DNA from: Glaciecola sp.
GTDB lineage: Bacteria; Pseudomonadota; Gammaproteobacteria; Enterobacterales; Alteromonadaceae
NCBI GenBank assembly: GCA_029251505.1
Contig: JAQXDG010000014.1
Span: 1 to 34,430 of the forward strand
Direction of reading: 5' to 3'
Length of the DNA stretch: 34,430 nt
The notes beneath the pieces were generated by a model. It saw only the letters and a program-made list of their open reading frames with translations. It ran no database searches and was not told where the DNA came from. How positions within the stretch are numbered: the first letter of the stretch is position 1; each line of letters opens with the position of its first letter. A program made the translations under genes and the position numbers. Shown piece by piece: positions 27,227 to 32,718 of this stretch.

Positions 27227-28519
27227 ATGAAAAAAACACTGTTAAGTGTCATCATAAGTATAGGATTTACTGGCTCACTACATGCCCAAGATTTATCGGC
27301 GATTTATCAACAAGCGTTAGATAAAGACCCTGTAGTTAACCGCGCAAAAGCATTGCGAGATGTATCACTTGAGGGTGTGACGTTAGCACGAGCTCCTTTA
27401 TTACCGCAAGTGTCAGGCTCAATTGGCTACACAATGTCTGACTCTGATAATGTCGATACCGACACATTAAACTATCGGGTCGGTTTATCCATGTCGTTGT
27501 ATGACCATGCACAATGGATTGGCATGGATCGCGCTGAAAAAGTTGCACTACAAGCCGAATCGTCTTATTCCGCCACTTTGCAAAACTTGATAGTGCGGGT
27601 CGTCGATGCGTATCTGAATATTTTACGCGCCAATGATAATGTTGAATTTGTGCAAGCAGAAAAGCGTGCCATAGAACGTCAACTAGAACAAACTAAGCAA
27701 CGATTTGAAGTGGGCTTAATCGCCATTACTGATGTGCATGAGGCACAAGCTAACTTCGATACCACAATAGCTCAAGAAATTGTTGCCCGCAATACCCTCG
27801 AACTACGCAAAGAACAGCTACGTGAAATTACTGGGTTGTATTATGACCAAGTTAACACGTTAAATACGACGACATTTGCTGCGCAAGCGCCTGCGCCTGA
27901 AACGGTCGAGGCATGGTTAGATTTGGCACAAATGAACAACTTGGATTTACAAGCACAGCGCTTTGCCGTTGATATCGCCAAAGCCGACATTGATAGTAAC
28001 AAGGCCGGACATCTACCAACACTGGGCTTATCTGGGTCATTGAGTCGTTCTGATTTTGACCGAGATGGTGTGGATGGTGATTCGGATACCAGCAGCTTAG
28101 GTATTACGTTAAGTGTGCCTATTTATAGTGGCGGCGCAACAACATCTCGTACTGCACAATCTCGCTCACGTTTTGTAGCGGAAAGTGAAACACTTGAACA
28201 AACCTATCGCGGTACGGTGCGTAATGTCCGTAATTCGTTTAATGACATTTCAGCTAACATGTCTACTATCAAAGCGTTTGAACAAGCGGTTATCTCAGCA
28301 GAGTCAGCCTTACGTGCGACTGAAGAAGGGTTTGATGTGGGGATCAGAACGATTGTTGATGTACTTAACTCAACACGTAATTTGTTTAACGCACGTAAAA
28401 ACTTAGCCAATGCTCGTTATGATTTTATCACTGCTGTGATTAGTCTGAAACGCGCTGCGGGTACGTTGACTGTTGCAGACATCGAAACCCTAAATAAAGG
28501 CCTTCAAGCGTCTAACTAG
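27227..28519 (+). CDS. tolC: Outer membrane channel protein TolC
   Basis: Trimeric outer-membrane duct for drug efflux pumps and type I secretion. The 430-residue protein has a signal peptide cut near LHAQD. The two tandem OEP repeats are visible: the first with QRFEVGLIAITDVHEAQANFD, seen as QRFEVGLI then DVHEAQANFD, and the second with EEGFDVGIRTIVDVLNSTR followed by NLFNARKNLANARYDF. The C-terminus ends shortly after LKRAAGTL, without the long tail of E. coli TolC. Divergent from nudF, as in most gammaproteobacteria. Confidence 0.95.
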   Translation: MKKTLLSVIISIGFTGSLHAQDLSAIYQQALDKDPVVNRAKALRDVSLEGVTLARAPLLPQVSGSIGYTMSDSDNVDTDTLNYRVGLSMSLYDHAQWIGMDRAEKVALQAESSYSATLQNLIVRVVDAYLNILRANDNVEFVQAEKRAIERQLEQTKQRFEVGLIAITDVHEAQANFDTTIAQEIVARNTLELRKEQLREITGLYYDQVNTLNTTTFAAQAPAPETVEAWLDLAQMNNLDLQAQRFAVDIAKADIDSNKAGHLPTLGLSGSLSRSDFDRDGVDGDSDTSSLGITLSVPIYSGGATTSRTAQSRSRFVAESETLEQTYRGTVRNVRNSFNDISANMSTIKAFEQAVISAESALRATEEGFDVGIRTIVDVLNSTRNLFNARKNLANARYDFITAVISLKRAAGTLTVADIETLNKGLQASN

Positions 28520-28574: not shown

Positions 28575-29426
28575 TTATCTAGGTTGTGCTTGCTGAGCAA
28601 GTAACAATGCTTTGATTTCACCAATCTCACTTTGCAATTCACTGATTTGCGCATGTAGCTCTGCGTTGACTTCTTTATTACTAATATCTTGCAACTCAGG
28701 GTGGGTAGCAGCCTCTTCTTCGCGTATTTCTCGTTGCTCTTGCTCCATGACATTAATGACAATTCCGATCACCATATTCAAAAATGCAAACGCGGTTAAG
28801 AAAATAAACGTCATGTAATAAATCCATGAAAATCCGTAGACTTCTTGGGTTTCGTACATGATATCCGTCCAATCTTCAAACGTCATTACACGGAACAAAG
28901 TCAACATCGCGATGGCAATATTACCCCACAACACCTCGTTAATCGGGGCAAATAAGTAGCTACCCATGGCTGCGTATATATAAAAGATAATAAACATGAG
29001 CAACACGACATAGCCCATTTTTGGCATCGCTTTGAGCAGCGAGTTAATCAATAATCGTAACTCAGGAATGATTGAAATCATTCGTAAGACTCTAAATACT
29101 CGGATCAAACGCGCCAACAAGGCCATTTCAGACTCATTAACCGGGACTAAACTGATGACCACGACAAGAGTATCGAAAATATTCCAACCGGATTTTAAGA
29201 AATCTTTTTTCCTCGGCTCAGCAACAAAGCGGATGATAATTTCGCATAAGAAAAATATCGTAATCGCTCTGTCCATGATCTTGGTGATCAACAACGCGGT
29301 GTCAGATAGAGGAAAGGTTTTTGCGCCAATTTCTAAGGCGGAGATAATGATGACCGTGATCACCACCATCTCAAAAATGCGATTGTGACGTAACGCCGAC
29401 AACGCAGCAACGAGAGTTGTGTACAT
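28575..29426 (-). CDS. Single-domain voltage-gated cation channel (NaChBac-like) with acidic filter
   Basis: A 283-residue six-helix inner-membrane channel subunit that would form tetramers. S1-S3 span about residues 16-95. S4 carries four arginines at every third position (Arg106, 109, 112, 115). S5 is about 136-160, the pore loop 170-190 and S6 about 200-227. The selectivity filter is TFEDWTD (182-188), where the sodium channels NaChBac and NavAb have TLESW. The C-terminus has an acidic stretch, then a heptad-like coiled coil (ELHAQISELQSEIGEIKALL), as expected for tetramerisation. Family is clear; calcium permeability is inferred from the filter. Confidence 0.9.
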   Translation of the reverse strand: MYTTLVAALSALRHNRIFEMVVITVIIISALEIGAKTFPLSDTALLITKIMDRAITIFFLCEIIIRFVAEPRKKDFLKSGWNIFDTLVVVISLVPVNESEMALLARLIRVFRVLRMISIIPELRLLINSLLKAMPKMGYVVLLMFIIFYIYAAMGSYLFAPINEVLWGNIAIAMLTLFRVMTFEDWTDIMYETQEVYGFSWIYYMTFIFLTAFAFLNMVIGIVINVMEQEQREIREEEAATHPELQDISNKEVNAELHAQISELQSEIGEIKALLLAQQAQPR

Positions 29427-29931: not shown

Positions 29932-32718
29932 TTAAATATTATACTTCGCTTTGATAACTGCAATCCGTTGTTGTGAATTTCGCTCTTGCCACTGCCTTGA
30001 CTCAAGCTTGCGTTTGGCTAACAAACGATTATCCGCCAAAATTAACGTTTCTATGTAATTTAAGAATATCACTTCGTTCGGCATTGTATCACTGACAACA
30101 CTATTGTATAACGTTAATGCTTCATCATACTGCTCTTGAGCATTATATACTTGCGCAAGCGTATCCACCACCGCTGCGTTATCTGGTTGAATCGCCATTG
30201 CCTGCTTTGCATACCCCTCAGCTTTAGCAAGCTCATCTTGTTCATATAGTAAATACGCTAAGTTGTTTAACGCTACAAAATTATTAGGCTGCTGCGCAAC
30301 TAGGCTCGTGTAAATCGTAATAGATTTTTGTGGTGTTGATTTCATCGAACGCTCAGCCAAAAGCAGGTTTGCCACCGTATCATTGGGGCTCGCCGCGACA
30401 TGTTTATTTAATAGCACTAACGCATCGGCAGGACGATTCGCCCCATCCAATGCTTTAATCAATGTCAGTAAATTACGACGATTGCCACGAGTGGCATACG
30501 CAATTTGCGCTGGCTTAACCGCCGCTTTAGGATTGTTTTCTTGAATCAATAACACTGCATTAATGGCTTCAACATCCGGTAAGGCTTTTACTTCATTACT
30601 CAACGTATTATATAAGTTGCGAGCCGTACGTGTGTCATTAGTTTGGGCTAAAAATTGTAACTCCATGATTTTAATCGGGAGCTGTTCACGTAACATAGGT
30701 TTAGATTTAATTAATGCCAATCCATCTGCAAATTCACTTTTTACAACGTGGACGACTAATCGTCCGATGACAGCATCATAACTGTTCGGAAACGCATCAA
30801 GCCATTGCGTGTAATGTTCTTGCGCAAGATTCACTTTATCACTCGCCACTAATGCTTGACCTTTAGTTTGCCAATAGCCGTTTGAATTCAAATCAATTGC
30901 ATTGGGCTGAGATAATACACTCAATGCTTGGTCGTAGTGGCCTTCAGAATTCAAAATTATGGCTTTCAGGATGTACATAGCCGGCGTTGGCTCTGCAGCA
31001 ATCGCTTTATCAAGATAGGTAACTATATCGCTTAGCCCTGTTTGTTCGGTGTCTATTTGATTGTGCAACACGTAATACATCATCAGCGCTGGTTCAAAAG
31101 CAGGTTTTAACTCTAACACTTTTTTCGTGCGAGCTATCGCTGCTGAGTAGTCTTTTTGACGAGCTAAAATACGCACCAATGACATATTGGGAATAGGATC
31201 ATCTGGCGCTAGTTGTAAGGCTTTTTCTAACGCCATTTGTGCACGCGCATAATCACTCGTGGCAACTGCTGCTTCAGCTTCCAACACATAAGCTTTCGGC
31301 TCATCTGGCATCATTTTTTGCCAGCTTTGTGATAACGTTAAGGCTTTATCATAATCACGATTAGCTAGATAAGCGGTTGCCAAAATAACTTGCGTGGGCA
31401 CATCATCAGGAGCCCCTTTTGCCGCTTTCTCAAGATCTAAAATACCCTCTAAATCATTAACCGATAATTTTAAAATGCCTATACGCGTTAGATCTTGATT
31501 GGTATTCGTCATATTTTGCGTTTTTGCAATTAACGCCTTGGCTTCCTCGATATAGCCATCTTGAATCAGTTCATAGCCTAATTTTGAATATAACTGGGGG
31601 TTATTTGATGAATCCTCGTCTACCCGAGATAAAACCTGACTAGCTTGCAATGATAAGCCAAGTTCAAGTTGACTTGCAGCGAGCATTTTCAAACCAGGGT
31701 GATCATCTGGTAAATTAGCTGCAATTAGCGATAAATGTTTATTTGCATTAATAAAATCATTAACTTTAAAAGCAGAATAACCTGCGATTAATCGAGCTAC
31801 AGGATTAGAATTACCTAAATTAATGGATTTTTCAGCAGCAACAAACGCACCTTGATGCTCATCCTGAGAAGCAAGAATCACAGCCTGCATTTGATTCAAT
31901 AATGGATTATTTGGTGAAATTTTAAGCAGTTTATCAGCATGTATTTGTGCTTCATCAGTTTGACCTACCTCAATCAATAAACCGGTATATATAAATAATT
32001 TTTCCAAATCATCAGGAGATTGTTTGATATATTCGCCTAAAACTTCAGCAGCTTCGATTCGTTTATTTTGCACTATATACAAGCGTGTCAGCATATCGAG
32101 TAAATCGCGATTCGTCGGCGCCTCTTTACGAATATTTTGTAGTTGTAACTCGGCACCAACCTCGTCATTATCTAAAATAGTCACATACACTAAAGCTAAA
32201 TCTTGATAAATTGAATCGGTATCTAGGGCTTTGATTTCATCAATGAGTTGGTAAGCTTCAGGCTTCTTTTCAAGCTCAACTAACGACTGTAATTTGTAAA
32301 AGCTAACTTGAGCTTTTGCGGTCGCATTATTTGATACTGCAGAGGTATCTAATGTGCTCAGACCAACAATAGTCTGATTCCGCTGGTACGCTTGTGAAAG
32401 CAAAGGGATCACTTCAGTTGCAGAATATCCTAAATCTCGCGCACGCGTTAACTCTTTTTCTGCTGACGCAAACTCGTTCGTTTGCATATAAATTTTACCT
32501 AATAAAAAACGTGCTTCCGCGTTTTTAGGATCCGATTGAATAGCGGATTTAAGATCTATAATTGCGGTATTATTATCCCCAGAGGACATATGTTGTTGGG
32601 CTTGAGCTATATGCTCTTCGACGGATTTCCCCCCACAAGCCATGAGCATAACACACGCTGTAGTAATGAATAAGGTGCGAATAGTACGTGATGAACGAGT
32701 ACCAAAATGCAGTAGCAT
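29932..32718 (-). CDS. prsT: PrsT-like TPR-repeat lipoprotein of PEP-CTERM systems
   Basis: A 928-residue lipoprotein: signal peptide with lipobox LMAC (Cys28), then tetratricopeptide repeats over nearly the whole length. Early repeats read DNNTAIIDLKSAIQSDPKNAE (residues 48-68), seen as NNTAIIDLKSAI plus DPKNAEARFLLGKIYM, and ASAEKELTRARDLGY. The N-terminal pattern and length match PrsT, the TPR protein found with exosortase/PEP-CTERM and exopolysaccharide genes. No exosortase, PEP-CTERM substrate or polysaccharide gene is in this window. A general TPR lipoprotein is the fallback call. Confidence 0.82.
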   Translation of the reverse strand: MLLHFGTRSSRTIRTLFITTACVMLMACGGKSVEEHIAQAQQHMSSGDNNTAIIDLKSAIQSDPKNAEARFLLGKIYMQTNEFASAEKELTRARDLGYSATEVIPLLSQAYQRNQTIVGLSTLDTSAVSNNATAKAQVSFYKLQSLVELEKKPEAYQLIDEIKALDTDSIYQDLALVYVTILDNDEVGAELQLQNIRKEAPTNRDLLDMLTRLYIVQNKRIEAAEVLGEYIKQSPDDLEKLFIYTGLLIEVGQTDEAQIHADKLLKISPNNPLLNQMQAVILASQDEHQGAFVAAEKSINLGNSNPVARLIAGYSAFKVNDFINANKHLSLIAANLPDDHPGLKMLAASQLELGLSLQASQVLSRVDEDSSNNPQLYSKLGYELIQDGYIEEAKALIAKTQNMTNTNQDLTRIGILKLSVNDLEGILDLEKAAKGAPDDVPTQVILATAYLANRDYDKALTLSQSWQKMMPDEPKAYVLEAEAAVATSDYARAQMALEKALQLAPDDPIPNMSLVRILARQKDYSAAIARTKKVLELKPAFEPALMMYYVLHNQIDTEQTGLSDIVTYLDKAIAAEPTPAMYILKAIILNSEGHYDQALSVLSQPNAIDLNSNGYWQTKGQALVASDKVNLAQEHYTQWLDAFPNSYDAVIGRLVVHVVKSEFADGLALIKSKPMLREQLPIKIMELQFLAQTNDTRTARNLYNTLSNEVKALPDVEAINAVLLIQENNPKAAVKPAQIAYATRGNRRNLLTLIKALDGANRPADALVLLNKHVAASPNDTVANLLLAERSMKSTPQKSITIYTSLVAQQPNNFVALNNLAYLLYEQDELAKAEGYAKQAMAIQPDNAAVVDTLAQVYNAQEQYDEALTLYNSVVSDTMPNEVIFLNYIETLILADNRLLAKRKLESRQWQERNSQQRIAVIKAKYNI

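Follow-up and report, generated by a model that had tools for sequence, protein, structure and literature searches.

The window analysed here, 34,430 nucleotides of contig JAQXDG010000014.1 from a Glaciecola sp. assembly, encodes a voltage-gated cation channel with the selectivity filter TFEDWTD. The protein adds one member to a kind of channel already known and is assigned by its sequence to the ancestor-like BacNavs, or AnclNavs, as defined in eLife 2020 (PMC7041947). The interpretation towards which the evidence leans is that of a homotetramer that would be voltage-gated, carry mainly Na+ and be partly blocked by Ca2+, as is NavPp, the AnclNav of Plesiocystis pacifica. The initial annotation had proposed a naturally calcium-permeable or mixed channel; some Ca2+ permeation is indeed likely, since NavPp passes some, whereas high natural Ca2+ selectivity is not favoured. 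Bacterial Na+ and Ca2+ channels may have diverged from each other within the AnclNavs, and in the literature covered currents are reported for NavPp and for CavMr only (PMC7041947, in the passages cited).

The channel gene and its predicted fold

The gene was placed at the correct coordinates by the initial annotation and lies on the minus strand (Table 1), where its reading frame is unbroken; frame 1 of the plus strand over the same interval contains many stops. The score of the protein against the Ion_trans profile (PF00520) lies above the cut-off of 25 and places it in that superfamily. A second Ion_trans match in the assembly is weak (26.4 bits), and a search of the assembly with the channel protein returned only the protein itself.

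Table 1. Features of the window channel and positions of related channels on IMG/VR records
Feature	Position	Strand	Basis or record
Channel gene, 283 residues, six-helix voltage-gated cation channel	28575..29426	-	Ion_trans 152.9 bits; stop codon 28575-28577
Voltage-sensor domain, residues 16-119	29070..29381	-	AlphaFold2 helices; E62, R66, N82, D85 in 80/80 named relatives
S4 gating arginines R106, R109, R112, R115	29082..29111	-	Sequence; each Arg in 80/80 named relatives
P1 pore helix, residues 170-181	28884..28919	-	AlphaFold2
Selectivity filter TFEDWTD, residues 182-188	28863..28883	-	Sequence and conservation
P2 helix, residues 186-196	28839..28871	-	AlphaFold2; start overlaps end of filter motif
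S6 and cytoplasmic extension, residues 200-241, with Asn217	28704..28829	-	AlphaFold2; N217 in 80/80 named relatives
C-terminal heptad-repeat helix, residues 254-278	28593..28667	-	Heptad register; AlphaFold2 helix 243-280, confidence low in part
Channel on larger phage contig, TFEDWTD	L285:10001-10834		IMG/VR 3300003086_000114
Channel on smaller phage contig, TFDNWSE	L284:9553-10407		IMG/VR 3300028177_000028
Clade channel at contig end, after tail protein J (phrog_469)	L286:9959-10780		IMG/VR 2693429859_000001

The fold was predicted as an AlphaFold2 monomer (mean pLDDT 81.2, pTM 0.58), in which residues 182-185 form the loop between P1 and P2. As these two helices flank it, TFEDWTD is the selectivity filter and lies in the pore loop, which answers the question of whether the filter might lie elsewhere, and its acidic residues stand at positions 3, 4 and 7 as had been read. 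The S4 arginines are the four that had been claimed, and the proposed C-terminal coiled coil corresponds to a heptad-repeat helix, whose a/d positions are hydrophobic in six of eight cases in the best register and in five of eight in the second-best. The voltage-sensor residues are intact; the counts of named relatives in Table 1 refer to the best 80 of 538, in all of which S2 Glu62, S3 Asp85, S6 Asn217 and each S4 arginine are kept.

The gene is flanked by a tolC gene (27227-28519, plus strand, 508.6 bits) and by a gene for the XrtA/PEP-CTERM TPR protein PrsT (29932-32718, minus strand, 495.6 bits), both recognised with NCBIfam profiles. A comparison of 30 flanked loci (the window and 29 from the set of 80 named ones) revealed no common operon or partner; tolC-like and TPR neighbours recur in only 6/30 each, window included, and the gene therefore looks stand-alone outside its near relatives. 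Paired clade channels, adjacent and in opposite orientation, occur in genomes G738 (L254 and L255) and G796 (L256 and L257), all four with TFEDWTD.

Filter conservation and place among bacterial channels

Matches to the channel at E <= 0.001, which take in NavAb-type and more distant channels, are present in 48/60 related genomes, 91/274 of the class and 161/398 of the phylum, these genome samples overlapping. At E <= 1e-60, a threshold that retains nearly only the window channel's own clade, 87 of the 394 genomes of the order have a match. For the whole-genome filter survey 158 clade members were read, of which 156 are distinct; membership was taken as identity of at least 45%, with L060, L088 and L217 added on tree placement (L217 via NavRh) and five further matches of that range left out (G033, G015, G051, the second match of G270, and G793). 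The clade is large and has mostly one acidic filter, with 138 of its 156 distinct members carrying TFEDWTD, 10 TFESWTS and 4 TFESWATA, while TLEDWTD, TLEGWTD, TLSSWET and TFDNWAH occur once each. Such retention puts the motif beyond chance and meets the suggestion that orthologues be searched for it. Position 4 is Asp in 139/156. The best 80 of 538 named relatives gave 78 TFEDWTD, one TFEGWAD (Candidatus Marithrix, L193) and one TFESWTS (Vibrio, L200), a scan that is not independent for filter positions 1-3, as T[FL]E closed one of the two patterns used. Among the matches listed, the named protein closest to the window channel, at 86% identity, comes from Glaciecola sp. HTCC2999.

Counted between the filter Trp and the Asn of S6, the pore loop of the window channel is 32 residues long, as in 221/221 TFEDWTD and 19/19 TLEDWTD sequences, against 33 in 17/17 NavAb-type TLESWSMG sequences. 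NavRh has the same short loop, and four channels with TFESWATA (L212, L213, L214, L215) have the 33-residue loop of NavAb-type length though they lie inside the clade. This bears on the comparison with CavAb, the NavAb engineered with TLDDWSD, made in the initial annotation: counted from the Thr, the acids do stand at the same three positions (position 3 being Asp in CavAb and Glu in the window channel), but with a loop one residue short of that in NavAb-type relatives, position 7 need not correspond structurally to that of CavAb.

In the main tree (51 rows, filter columns excluded; the Bacillus group, NavPp and CavMr absent, with TLEDWTD relatives standing in for NavPp) the ten NavAb-type rows split from the remainder at 100/99* and the window protein falls outside them, so that the description "NaChBac-like" is a loose one, as judged on a tree without the Bacillus group. 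On sequence, the protein is of AnclNav type, having a branch distinct from the NavAb-type channels (with the same reservation as to the Bacillus group) and a TLESW-like filter with additional acids. The canonical BacNav motif TLESWxxG is replaced by TFEDWTD, with the Trp-to-Asn count of 32 instead of 33, and position 4, Gly in the CavMr type, is Asp185. Its clade of 36 rows is recovered at 100/100* on a long stem (1.87 changes per column). Five rows of TLEDWTD type (L218, L072, L061, L080 and L223) fall apart from it, yet L059, also a TLEDWTD row, lies inside. L223 (G437) has the filter TFEDWTD and groups with TLEDWTD-type rows, so that position 2 probably acquired Phe on more than one occasion. 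NavPp and CavMr were also looked for by homology search of plasmid records and among the 60 PDB matches listed out of 115, and neither was seen.

NavRh, from Rickettsiales sp. HIMB114 (PDB 4dxw), scores best by sequence among the single-domain PDB chains (E 1.4e-62, 215 bits), with 45% identity over 222 ungapped residues as measured via its genome copy L217, which matches the crystal sequence at 99.6% identity. By sequence, NavRh appears to belong in or beside the window channel's clade: it and L088 form long branches within the 36 rows, although a position just outside is compatible with the data (p-AU 0.425 for NavRh and 0.157 for L088), and in a second tree, with its bootstrap unsettled, the position of NavRh within the clade is without firm support. 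Structure searches ranked NavAb chains first by Z (18.9), with NavRh outside the best 50 rows, whereas by E-value NavRh led, almost level with NavMs, the rows being too close to rank relatives; NavAb and CavAb chains are about 24-31% identical to the window channel in structure alignments. NavRh, a solved structure with the odd filter TLSSWET, which lacks the three acids, thus comes to stand within or next to a clade in which the prevailing filter is quite another. The T-type Ca2+ channels that head the PDB list by E-value do so through summed multi-domain scores, and a special tie to them was rejected, as their best single domain reaches 69-70 bits (from the three chains with domain scores given) against 215 for NavRh.

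Natural variants of the filter within the clade include TFESWTS (L246), TFESWATA (L213), TFEGWAD (L193) and TLEGWTD (L088). On the second tree, with 59 clade rows among its 65, Asp changed nine times at position 4 and seven times at position 7. All clade rows read that are without Asp-7 are also without Asp-4, and both rows with Gly-4 retain Asp-7; outside the clade, L080 (TLEGWTQ) has Gly-4 without Asp-7. On well-supported branches four to five of five D4/D7 pairs agree in direction, with none opposed (sign test p 0.0625-0.125, bootstrap unsettled), so the coupling is a lead and suggestive only. The D4-to-Ser, D4-to-Gly and D4-to-Asn variants are a ready series for the determinants of Na+ versus Ca2+ selectivity that requires no engineering. 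L193 and L088, with Gly-4 as in CavMr, are candidates for further native bacterial Ca2+ channels.

Ion selectivity

No recording of a TFEDWTD channel was found, and the string FEDWTD is absent from the open-licence PMC literature. The measured filter nearest to it is TLEDWTD of NavPp, likewise a single-domain channel, which shares the acids at 3, 4 and 7, the Trp and the Thr and differs by a single residue, Leu for Phe at position 2, the comparison covering the filter. According to the passages cited from PMC7041947, an account repeated in the accompanying Insight (PMC7041941), NavPp prefers Na+ (PCa/PNa 0.308) also over K+ and Cs+, passes some Ca2+ and is blocked by external Ca2+. As to the Phe, which certain BacNavs and AnclNavs also have in second position, NavAb L176F was without Ca2+ block in the passage concerned (PMC10349818). 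Periplasmic Ca2+ is reported to block Na+ flux in NavRh (review PMC4444806), and its filter grafted into NaChBac is described as Na+-selective (PMC4225499, in the passage cited). As the closest studied relatives pass Na+ and are blocked by Ca2+, a calcium-sensitive Na+ channel is more likely here than a true Ca2+ channel, and the position outside the NavAb-type clade, with the short loop of the TLEDWTD group and NavRh, is consistent with this.

In such a channel depolarisation would shift the four-arginine S4 and open the pore, which would carry mainly Na+. The acidic ring of E184, D185 and D188, amounting to twelve carboxylates in the presumed tetramer, would bind Ca2+ at the pore mouth, and at millimolar external concentrations Ca2+ would permeate slightly and partly block the Na+ current, as in NavPp. 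The channel may thereby serve as a depolarisation-triggered path for Na+ entry. Several points count against this reading. The NavPp behaviour may not transfer, since the stem of the clade is long; the NavRh filter is very different from that of the window channel, and NavRh has a long branch and falls outside the best structure rows by Z.

The same acids have also given three outcomes in three kinds of backbone (NavAb/NaChBac, NavPp, and CavMr with the NavPp filter), as the passages cited from PMC7041947 recount. NavAb with TLEDWSD and NaChBac with TLEDWAD are Ca2+-selective (PMC7041947, as cited), and NaChBac with LEDWAS carries Ca2+ current (PMC7764494, in the passage cited), results that would suit a naturally Ca2+-selective window channel, in which the acids at 3, 4 and 7 make a high-affinity site as in CavAb and Na+ is excluded. 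The prevalence of Asp at position 4 in the clade points the same way, as does a 2023 "beacon" review (PMC10120453), one passage of which makes Asp at position 4 always Ca2+-selective; another passage allows either Ca2+ selectivity or a Na+ channel that Ca2+ blocks. However, in the NavPp backbone TLEDWTD, TLEDWSD and TLEDWAD are all Ca2+-blocked, T6S and T6A bringing no conversion to a Ca2+ channel (PMC7041947, as cited), and the window channel has a pore loop one residue short of the NavAb type. CavMr, the native Ca2+ channel of Meiothermus ruber and also an AnclNav, shares Glu at 3 and Asp at 7 with the window channel, but its filter TLEGWVD has Gly 4 and Val 6, both needed for its Ca2+ selectivity, in place of Asp and Thr, the Gly being named as the key residue for Ca2+ in AnclNavs (PMC7041947, same passages). 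This rule too depends on the backbone, since in a passage of a 2026 paper NavAb with Gly at position 4 gained Li+ but not Ca2+ selectivity (PMC12919392). Calcium selectivity in the window channel is accordingly possible but unlikely, and ranks second to the NavPp/NavRh-like reading. We judge similarly improbable a channel that tells Na+ from Ca2+, and perhaps from K+, only poorly, as does CavMr fitted with the NavPp filter (CavMr-Pp, TLEDWTD), for which PCa/PNa is 13.8 and Cs+ and K+ are less well discriminated from Na+ (PMC7041947, as cited). The Ca2+ that passes through NavPp would fit it; the preference of NavPp for Na+ over K+ and Cs+ does not, and the filter, strongly conserved at each of its seven positions, points to a definite selectivity.

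A voltage-gated protein that acts as a sensor or is silent, conducting little or nothing under ordinary conditions, is very improbable, as filter, S4 charges and S6 Asn show the conservation that a working pore would lead one to expect. Halomonas elongata and Teredinibacter turnerae both belong to the Gammaproteobacteria. Their AnclNavs, with filters described as similar to that of NavPp, gave no detectable current (PMC7041947, in the passage cited), and NavRh is described as non-functional in mammalian and insect cells in PMC4225499, which also shows filters in Bacillus to be easily retuned; failed heterologous expression, however, is a weak negative. The preferred reading remains that of a NavPp-like channel, mainly Na+-conducting and Ca2+-sensitive.

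Channel genes on phage contigs

Scans of viral contigs with clade queries gave three IMG/VR records. Two of these are related T4-like phage contigs of 97,072 and 26,986 bases, each with a full-length clade channel (Table 1); 21 of the 32 ORFs of at least 90 residues on the smaller match the 90 ORFs read on the larger (BLASTP, E <= 1e-5). The two channels match Ion_trans with 154.3 and 151.7 bits and are 65% identical to each other, that of the larger contig being 55% identical to the window protein, and a small-protein family common to both contigs lies 0.7 to 3 kb downstream of the channel. Both contigs encode a clamp loader of T4 type (phrog_168, E 1.8e-79 and 2.5e-82) and a protein resembling the tail-fibre connector of the baseplate wedge (phrog_677). 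The smaller also has a SegE GIY-YIG endonuclease and a GroEL (phrog_5725), the latter with an 82% identical partner on the larger. In the third record (L286) the channel may be prophage cargo or part of the host flank of a prophage.

Terminase_6N was not found in the three records; this profile was positive in 6/14 controls, and the records may be fragments with the gene lying elsewhere. Capsid protein Gp23 had no match in the three records and none in the controls, which makes it uninformative. The phage reading consequently rests on genes other than these two. When named phage records were searched with the channel of the smaller contig, a single weak match came up (26.8%, E 1e-6), and nothing relevant to phage-borne voltage-gated channels was found among the papers listed from the open-licence PMC literature.

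Chances seem evenly balanced that the clade is common to marine bacteria and their phages, that the intact auxiliary Nav/Cav-type channel of a T4-like lineage alters host membrane voltage or the entry of Na+ or Ca2+ during infection, and that natural retuning of the filter has happened repeatedly within it, by joint loss of D4 and D7 towards a NavAb-like form or by D4 to Gly towards a CavMr-like, calcium-selective one. Should the phage copies prove functional, they would represent Nav/Cav-type voltage-gated channels serving infection.

A further channel, found with TLEDWTD-type queries, lies on a contig classed as viral (L295:1601-2395, IMG/VR 3300032298_001148), a putative status. The 97-kb phage contig also encodes a TctA subunit of a tripartite tricarboxylate transporter (L289:8495-10087, PF01970, 297.7 bits).
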